This document shows, piece after piece, positions 58,477 to 62,025 of a stretch of 64,000 bases of DNA. The notes beneath the pieces are model-generated. The model was not told the DNA's origin. It made no database searches and was given only the letters and a program-made list of their open reading frames with translations. Positions within the stretch are counted from its first letter, which is position 1. Every line of letters starts with the position of its first letter. This DNA is from Pseudotabrizicola formosa. GTDB lineage: Bacteria; Pseudomonadota; Alphaproteobacteria; Rhodobacterales; Rhodobacteraceae. The translations under genes were made by a program, and so were the position numbers. Location: NCBI RefSeq assembly GCF_002900965.1, contig NZ_PJOM01000002.1, forward strand, positions 1 to 64,000, given 5' to 3'.

Positions 58477-59133
58477 ATGTTCTTCATGAACCGCGCCAAA
58501 TCGCAGATGGTTGATCCGAAAGATGCGCTGCCGGGCCGGGCAGAGCCGTTGCCGACCGCCGAGACCCATTTCATTTCCGGCATCCCGCTGAAATCGCCGG
58601 TGCCCGAGGGTATGGAACAGGCGATGTTCGGCATGGGCTGTTTCTGGGGGGTGGAGCGCAAGTTCTGGCAGACCCCCGGCGTCTGGCTGACCATGGTGGG
58701 CTATGCGGGCGGCTATACGCCGAACCCGACCTACAAGGAAACCTGCACCCAGTTGACCGGCCATAACGAAGTGGTGCGGGTGATCTATGACCCGAAAGTG
58801 GTCGGCTATGAGCAGTTGTTGAAACTGTTCTGGGAAGGGCATGACCCGACCCAAGGCATGCGGCAGGGCAATGATGTGGGGTCCACCTATCGGTCGGGGA
58901 TCTATACCTATACCGACGCGCAGGCGCAGGCTGCCGAGGCGTCGCGCGGCGTCTATCAAGAGGCGTTGAGCCGCGCCGGAAAAGGGACGATCACCACCGA
59001 AATCCTGCCGGTGCCCGAGTTCTTCTTTGCCGAGGATTACCACCAGCAATATTTGCGAAAGAACCCCAACGGCTATTGCGGCATTGGCGGCACCGGCGTG
59101 ACTTGCCCGATCGGCACCGGCGTTACGGCCTGA
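58477..59133 (+). CDS. msrA: Peptide-methionine (S)-S-oxide reductase
   Basis: The 218-residue repair enzyme reduces methionine-S-sulfoxide. The catalytic Cys is in [14 protein letters not shown], and resolving Cys are near the C-terminus in [31 protein letters not shown] is the family signature. It is somewhat longer than average because of an N-terminal 45-residue lead. Start has AGGGGAG upstream. No msrB is adjacent. Confidence 0.95.
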
Positions 59134-59241
59134 TCCGGCTTTTGCGGGCGGGGGTCTGATGATCACCGCCCGCCAGTCGGCTTGACGTGACGGGCAGCGG
59201 CGGCTAGGGCCAAGGGCGCAGCTGCCAGAGGTTTTTTTGCC

Positions 59242-60357
59242 ATGCCCACATTCACCGCCCTGACCACCATCGCAGGCGATGACGCCGCCGAAAGTCTGGC
59301 ACAGGCGCTGGAGCGGATGCAGCCCGAACCGCTGGAGGTCGAGATCTACGACGACCCCGAGGTTCCTGATCTGGCGCGCGTCATTGCCCTGTTTGCCAAG
59401 GCCCCTGACGCGACCCTGCTGGATGTGCTGGCCCAGGCATTTTGCGCGACCCCCTTTACGGTGACCGAAGCTGCGCAACGCACCTTTACCGCGCTGACGA
59501 CGCTGCCCGGTGAGGCGGCGGCGAAGGCCCTGGCCGAGGCGATCGAGGCGATGGAACCCGCCCCTTATGGCGTGGGTGCCTTCGAGATCGAGGACGATTC
59601 CGGGCTCTGGGAGGTGGGGGCCTATTTCCTTGAGCAGCCCGATGTCGGGATGCTGGACGCTTTGGGGGCGGCGCAGGGGGCAAAGCCCTTTGCCGTGTCG
59701 GAATTGCCCGAAATCGACTGGGTGGCCAAGGTGCGGCGCGAGCTGGCCCCGGTCGAGGCGGGCCGGTTCTTTGTGTTCGGCAGTCATGATGCGGAGCGCG
59801 CGGCGGATCTGGGGCCGGATCGTGTGGCCTTGCAGATCGAGGCGACGGTGGCCTTTGGCACCGGCCATCATGGCACCACGCTGGGCTGCCTGCGGGCCTT
59901 TGACCGGCTGTTCAGCGCGGGCTTTGCGCCGGGCAAGGTGGCCGACATTGGCTGTGGCACAGCCGTTCTGGCCATGGCGGCGGCGGCGGTGCTGCCCGAA
60001 GCGCTGGTGCTGGCCAGTGACATTGATCAGGTCGCGGTGGATGTGGCCCGCGCCAATGTGGCGATCAATGCGCTGGAGGGCCGGATCGAATGCCTGGAGG
60101 CGGCGGGTTTTGCCCATCCGCGTCTGGCCGAGGCGGCGCCATTTGATCTGGTGTTTGCCAATATCCTGAAAGGCCCGCTGATCGAACTGGCCCCGCCGAT
60201 GGCGGCGCATCTGGTGCCGGGGGGGCTGTGCATCCTGTCGGGGCTGCTGGTGGTGCAGGCCGAAGCCGTGACGGCGGCCTATGCTGCCGCCGGCTTTGAT
60301 CTGGCCGGGCGCGAAGACATTGGCGAATGGTCGACGCTGGTTATGCGCCGTCTGTAG
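59242..60357 (+). CDS. prmA: Ribosomal protein L11 methyltransferase with duplicated N-terminal domain
   Basis: The 371-residue SAM-dependent enzyme methylates L11. The C-terminal catalytic part is standard: ATVAFGTGHHGTTLG, SAM motif VADIGCGTAVLAM and FANILKGPLIEL. The usual length is about 290 residues; the excess is an extra copy of the N-terminal substrate-recognition domain. Residues 4-76 and 82-154 align in tandem, starting FTALTTIAGDDAA and FTALTTLPGEAAA and ending ATPFTVTE and AKPFAVSE. The second copy joins the catalytic domain in the normal way. The ATG at 59242 is the only good start. Confidence 0.93.
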   Translation: MPTFTALTTIAGDDAAESLAQALERMQPEPLEVEIYDDPEVPDLARVIALFAKAPDATLLDVLAQAFCATPFTVTEAAQRTFTALTTLPGEAAAKALAEAIEAMEPAPYGVGAFEIEDDSGLWEVGAYFLEQPDVGMLDALGAAQGAKPFAVSELPEIDWVAKVRRELAPVEAGRFFVFGSHDAERAADLGPDRVALQIEATVAFGTGHHGTTLGCLRAFDRLFSAGFAPGKVADIGCGTAVLAMAAAAVLPEALVLASDIDQVAVDVARANVAINALEGRIECLEAAGFAHPRLAEAAPFDLVFANILKGPLIELAPPMAAHLVPGGLCILSGLLVVQAEAVTAAYAAAGFDLAGREDIGEWSTLVMRRL

Positions 60358-61512: not shown

Positions 61513-62025
61513 ATGCGGGTGGTGGGAATCGATCCGGGGTTGCGAAACCTGGGCTGGGGCGTGATCGACGTGGCCGGCGCGCGTATCACCCATGTCGCCA
61601 ATGGCATCTGCCATTCCGACGGGGCCGAGGGCTCGCTGGCAGAGCGCCTGCGCAGTCTGCACGCGCAACTGACCGAGGTGATCCGGCTCTGGCAGCCCGA
61701 GGCAGCGGCGGTGGAGCATACCTTTGTGAACAAGGACGCGGTGGCCACGCTGAAACTGGGGCAGGCGCGGGGGATTGCGCTGCTGGTGCCGGCGCAGTTC
61801 GGGCTGGAAGTGGGGGAATATGCCCCCAATGCGGTGAAGAAATGCGTGGTGGGGGTCGGCCATGCCGCCAAGGTTCAGGTCGACCATATGGTGCGGCTGC
61901 AATTGCCCGGGGTGGTGATTGCGGGGGCGGATGCGGCGGACGCCCTGGCCATTGCGATCTGCCATGCGCATCATCTGCAATCGGCGGGCCGGCTGGAGTC
62001 TGCATTGAAAAGGGCGGCAGGATGA
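61513..62025 (+). CDS. ruvC: Crossover junction endodeoxyribonuclease RuvC
   Basis: The 170-residue Holliday-junction resolvase has the catalytic acidic residues Asp in [10 protein letters not shown], Glu in [10 protein letters not shown], and Asp in the C-terminal [16 protein letters not shown]. The length is normal. The start at 61513 directly precedes the conserved strand. It overlaps ruvA by 4 bases. Confidence 0.97.

Follow-up and report, generated by a model that had tools for sequence, protein, structure and literature searches.

The prmA gene of Pseudotabrizicola formosa encodes an L11 methyltransferase of 371 amino acids in which the N-terminal recognition domain is present twice in tandem. 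The gene lies on the forward strand at 59242..60357 of the window (the whole stretch of 64,000 nucleotides analysed here), as an open reading frame with an ATG start. Copy 1 of the N-domain spans residues 1–78 (59242..59475, forward strand) and is supported by profile match, predicted fold and dN/dS; copy 2, residues 81–155 (59482..59706, forward strand), is supported by profile match and predicted fold and occupies the canonical place before the linker. The linker and the SAM-dependent catalytic domain, with FGTGHH at residues 205–210, make up residues 156–371 (59707..60354, forward strand), as judged from matches to PrmA structures by sequence and by fold. The protein seems to be a rare form of an enzyme already known, not a new system.

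A second copy of the PrmA N-domain

The extra N-terminal segment is a second copy of the PrmA N-domain. Residues 3–76 align with the stretch beginning at residue 81 without a gap over 74 residues, with a score of 146, and none of 2000 shuffles of the second stretch reached this value (mean 26.7, maximum 56). Profile comparison using hhalign matched copy 1 (n = 19) to 29 single-domain PrmA N-domains at 99.8% (E 6e-28, 78 columns) and to copy 2 at 99.3% with 44% identity (residues 3–77 and 81–155), and copy 2 matched the single N-domains at 100% (E 1.9e-44). An unrelated extension is ruled out by these matches and by the control, in which copy 1 against an L11 profile of four sequences gave 0.1% (E 0.61). 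The copy-1 profile also matched the designed repeat proteins 4yy2 and 4yy5 over 26 residues, which was taken as chance. Within the genome itself, the single-N-domain profile matches twice, at 59242-59469 (E 3.7e-20) and 59482-59709 (E 1.3e-36), and 59242-60357 is the sole full match for PrmA.

The structure of the doubled protein was predicted with AlphaFold2 from an alignment of 72 sequences (19 doubled and 53 single), giving a mean pLDDT of 89.2. Both copies were modelled as strand-helix-strand-strand-helix-strand (residues 2–78 and 81–155, DSSP), an order of elements that occurs once in the model of a single-domain relative (L011). The pTM of 0.61 leaves the placement of the domains relative to each other uncertain. 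The tandem duplication had been proposed in a first-pass annotation of this DNA, with correct coordinates, from the elements FTALTT-x2-G, PD-x3-LD-x-L and PF-x-V-x-E, which indeed recur in the same order in both copies. Its comparison of 371 residues with about 290 in the family agrees with the 288–303 amino acids measured for single-domain relatives (n = 93), and neither profile comparison nor predicted structure made the segment unrelated to the N-domain, the outcome that it had named as refuting.

Copy 1 looks translated, as indicated by several features. A putative Shine-Dalgarno-like AGAGG (59227..59231, forward strand), recognised by sequence reading, stands 10 bases 5′ of the copy-1 ATG; copy 2 starts with Thr and never with Met in 19/19 doubled proteins; at one further locus (L114) the reading frame begins just four residues ahead of copy 1; and the dN/dS of copy 1 is low (see below). 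Taken alone, copy 1 is named by no Pfam or NCBIfam model and copy 2 reaches merely 23.8 bits with one NCBIfam model, so that the doubling is invisible to these libraries.

Membership in the PrmA family rests on the rest of the chain. Pfam PF06325 scores 174.2 bits against a cut-off of 22 over residues 123–370, the recognition domain ahead of the linker is present as copy 2, and FGTGHH is invariant in 72 aligned PrmA sequences; the histidine here would correspond to the one described as the base of the catalytic motif in the excerpted text of PMC3347575. The two N-domains and the length of 371 residues depart from the one-domain form of about 290 residues, and membership does not depend on them. 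NCBIfam TIGR00406 gave 114.1 bits against a cut-off of 183.15, and NF001784 gave 226.5 against 244, a cut-off that is non-discriminating here since three ordinary single-domain relatives fall short as well (241.4, 238.1 and 240.3; n = 3).

The best PDB match by sequence, from residue 153 onward, is PrmA of Thermus thermophilus (1ufk, 2nxe, 3cjq and others). By fold, the likeness extends over N-domain, linker and catalytic domain (289–296 columns, about 30% identity, target TM-score 0.64–0.70); however, the Thermus enzyme has one N-domain in chains of 244–254 residues, against two in 371 here. Closer at hand, the single-domain Rhodobacteraceae PrmA proteins (about 290 amino acids), 53 of which were aligned, are 60–81% identical to the window protein but lack copy 1. 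No catalytic-domain column separated the 19 doubled proteins from the 71 nearer single ones at the thresholds used. Among the open-licence papers listed for PrmA and L11 methyltransferases, no title or abstract opening mentions a doubled N-domain.

Occurrence and origin of the doubled form

The homologue search that the first-pass annotation had suggested found doubled PrmA in 5/394 genomes of the family among the matches listed (379 matched), from four genera; the genomes had been drawn over the family and are nearly all of different genera. In the ordered list of matches the fifth whole-pair match has an E of 3.6e-52 and is followed by partial matches alone. In a set made up of the window's genome plus the 60 closest relatives available (58/61 matched), 10 carry a full-length doubled PrmA, all belonging to the window's genus, in which 5/16 genomes are single-domain and in one the gene is interrupted where the contig stops. 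Two adjacent matches of the single-N-domain profile occur in 1/148 genomes of the order (all 148 belonging to the same family), namely the window's own; in another genome a second, stray match lies on a different contig (E 0.002). Across 24 other families of the class, represented by one genome each and searched with the whole protein, no match covers copy 1, a search in which a diverged copy could be missed.

Doubled PrmA was found at 16 of the 80 loci kept (337 confirmed), in a set biased by the query, and the comparison set after dropping identical catalytic domains held 19 doubled and 94 single proteins. Carriers include Pseudotabrizicola sediminis, P. algicola and P. alkalilacus, Pseudorhodobacter sp. 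MZDSW-24AT, Tabrizicola sp. SY72, T. oligotrophica; others are metagenome-assembled genomes, including one labelled Gemmobacter nectariphilus. The gene neighbourhood is constant. The peptide methionine sulfoxide reductase gene msrA (58477..59133, forward strand; Pfam PMSR, 205 bits) lies upstream at 19/19 doubled loci and ruvC (61513..62025, forward strand; Pfam RuvC, 135 bits) downstream at 18/19, the remaining locus being short; both neighbours are outside the system itself.

In a quick tree of 129 domains over 75 columns (19 copy 1, 19 copy 2 and 91 single), copy-1 and copy-2 domains each group in a clade of their own (support 100 and 99.9, respectively). Copy 1 contributes 80 residues before copy 2 in 16/19 proteins and 84 in 3/19, with Gln79 invariant. 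One clade per copy, together with this common register, indicates that the doubling likely arose by a single duplication.

The trees of the housekeeping genes place the carriers differently. With several rows partial in the rpoB and gyrB trees, the doubled state requires five changes on rpoB (36 rows, 14 carriers; single carrier clade rejected, p 5e-5), six on gyrB (35 rows, 15 carriers; rejected, p 9e-6) and five on the two combined (39 rows, 16 carriers; rejected, p 4e-5). Of 44 genomes searched for rpoB, 37 matched and 36 entered the tree, G010 being excluded because it is in two fragments; for gyrB, 36/36 matched and 35 were used, excluding the fragmented G438. For the catalytic domain, a carrier clade was not rejected with protein sequences (101 rows, 12 long rows excluded; p 0.479) or with DNA (92 rows; p 0.351), and was marginally rejected with 38 rows (G008 excluded; p-AU 0.030, p-SH 0.08); with all 113 rows the doubled/single label needs four changes.

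The scatter over the rpoB and gyrB trees and the marginal 38-row result could be taken to mean that doubling took place more than once and that the likeness came about by convergence. We regard this as very improbable. The copies cluster by copy and are not paired by species, register and junction are shared, and a DNA tree of copy 2 with the single domains unites the carriers in one clade (support 99.8), all of which disfavours independent duplications. Scattered carriers that share the same locus point instead to exchange in place or to frequent replacement: probably, either the doubled allele, as the whole of prmA or as its 5′ part, has been exchanged by in-place recombination, or an ancestral doubled gene has often been replaced. 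The single-domain relatives are unlikely to have come about by simply losing copy 1, because 0/91 single domains have the Ala113 of copy 2.

Selection and reciprocal divergence of the copies

Copy 1 evolves faster yet is under purifying selection. Over 45 pairs of 10 genomes, median dN was 0.123 for copy 1 versus 0.062 for copy 2, and median dN/dS came to 0.118 (copy 1), 0.079 (copy 2) and 0.083 (catalytic domain); figures for Tabrizicola-type rows, which differ in length and had been compared ungapped, were set aside. Across 19 sequences, 18 columns of copy 1 are invariant, Asp37 and Arg25 among them. In the domain tree copy 2 has a long stem of its own (0.45), and the copy-1 branch, which spans the root as drawn, measures 0.74 + 0.36.

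The first-pass annotation had described the first copy as drifted, relaxed and the added one. Drift of copy 1 is borne out by its lost hairpin residues and faster dN, but the drift is not one-sided, copy 2 having changed too. A relaxed or decaying copy 1 is not borne out, given a dN/dS near those of copy 2 and the catalytic domain. As for the order of addition, the tree of the copies does not single out either one: constraining both copies as one group was not rejected (p 0.757) and gave a likelihood above that of the free search.

The divergence differs between segments of the domain. Compared with the 91 single domains, copy 2 is the closer copy in strand 1, the hairpin and strand 4 (19/19 each), copy 1 is the closer in helix 2 (18/19), and in helix 1, where copy 1 is the closer in 7/19, the two are almost level and show no division. 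In the hairpin, which is conserved in copy 2 (residues 108–130; 59563..59631, forward strand; from conserved-column comparison with the single domains), 19 columns are conserved in the singles; of these, copy 2 alone keeps 16, copy 1 alone 0, both keep 2 and neither keeps 1. Conversely, helix 2 of copy 1 (residues 57–66; 59410..59439, forward strand; DSSP on the model and segment comparison) keeps single-domain features, whereas helix 2 of copy 2 (residues 135–144; 59644..59673, forward strand; DSSP on the model and column comparison) has drifted: over eight columns, copy 1 alone keeps three and copy 2 alone none.

Copy 2 has in addition acquired fixed residues. Tyr109 and Ala113 are present in 19/19 copy-2 domains, compared with Tyr in 2 and Ala in 0 of the 91 single domains, which have mostly Thr or Val at position 109 and Val at position 113 in 89/91. 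Phe145 is kept in 19/19 of copy 1 and 1/19 of copy 2; since His is also found there in 5/91 single domains, the change from Phe145 to His need not mean lost function. Counts of 19/19 represent few independent events, because the doubled sequences are related to one another. Taken together, the two copies appear to have divided the features of the old domain between them.

Three loci of one lineage differ within copy 1 itself. At L038:2004-2255, L040:2001-2252 and L041:1876-2127, copy 1 has four extra residues where helix 1 begins, and its hairpin, YDEEDGSGNLRV, is nearer to the single-domain form (identity 0.39, against 0.23–0.29 in other copy-1 sequences).

The L11 substrate and the possible roles of the two copies

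The substrate was examined for a change accompanying the doubling. The genome has one L11, with Ala1, Lys3 and Lys39 in mature numbering (sites numbered as in the excerpt of PMC3347575). A carrier-specific L11 column was sought between 13 carriers and 43 other genomes and none was found; four columns flagged by script have the same residue in 11 to 16 rows labelled single. The 44 rows with that label include L171, a copy from the window's own genome, which does not count among the 43. In this comparison G010, whose state is unknown, was in neither group, 4/62 rows at ≤55% identity were dropped, and the assemblies of six carriers gave no match for L11 (G004, G013, G015, G433, G434 and G439). 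L11 would still be the substrate of the doubled enzyme.

What the computation shows is homology, predicted fold, one clade per copy and purifying selection on both copies, along with reciprocal loss of features and the lack of a corresponding change in L11 and in the catalytic domain. In the excerpted text of PMC3347575, the PrmA N-domain binds L11 with specificity, the catalytic domain lacks specificity of its own, and the flexible linker allows the latter to reach several groups. We tentatively favour, at a little below an even chance, a reading in which the protein is still an L11 methyltransferase with copy 2 docking L11 and copy 1 serving as a co-adapted accessory, the copies having diverged reciprocally. 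A single in-frame duplication of the recognition domain would have taken place in a group of Rhodobacteraceae, and both copies would have been retained while diverging reciprocally. Copy 2, which adjoins the linker and catalytic domain, would most likely dock L11, as suggested by its canonical position and the conserved columns it keeps, and the linker would swing the catalytic domain across the several methylated groups. Copy 1, with fold and helix 2 kept and the hairpin lost, would most likely pack beside copy 2 and so complete or steady one composite recognition unit, which would amount to complementary degeneration inside one chain.

Copy 1 may alternatively have taken on a new job, its changed hairpin binding a different partner such as a further substrate protein, an assembly factor or a second PrmA. 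The replaced hairpin, the fixing of some positions (Asp37 and Arg25), the long copy-1 stem, the purifying selection and an L11 without co-change are all consistent with this. However, there is no candidate partner, the catalytic domain has no matching change, and the copy-1 hairpin differs much among carrier lineages, which does not suggest one fixed ligand; we consider such a role unlikely, if a serious contender. It is similarly doubtful that copy 1 is a passive passenger that folds, does little and is kept since a misfolded or truncated domain ahead of copy 2 would harm the enzyme. Its faster evolution fits a passenger, as do the presence of the single form in the same genus and the absence of a clear phenotype in E. 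coli prmA mutants (excerpt of PMC3347575), but its low dN/dS and 18 invariant columns speak against one, and the changes that became fixed in copy 2 suggest that the copies adjusted to each other. A further proposal joins the history of the locus to the division of features: a module of single origin would have passed from genus to genus as recombination at prmA replaced single-domain alleles, and docking would be split between the hairpin of copy 2 and helix 2 of copy 1, both copies now being needed to dock L11 or else altering the order or extent of its methylation. As a whole, this appears quite unlikely.

PrmA is described as a model of how one enzyme carries out many methylations by means of a docking domain and a mobile linker; what the methylations are for is described as unclear (both in the excerpt of PMC3347575). 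A natural variant with two docking domains, beside one-domain relatives in the same genus, offers a ready-made comparison for studying the way docking governs multiple methylation. Moreover, the case looks like complementary degeneration of tandem copies in one chain, with the allele scattered over the species tree.

Two variations in length were observed in doubled and single genomes alike. In the catalytic domain, the loop before FGTGHH (residues 184–194, window 59791-59823) varies by several residues among close relatives. In L11 of these Rhodobacteraceae (L164 and many others), eight extra residues around PPVGKRNRA follow the N-terminal part, in comparison with L11 of most other aligned relatives.
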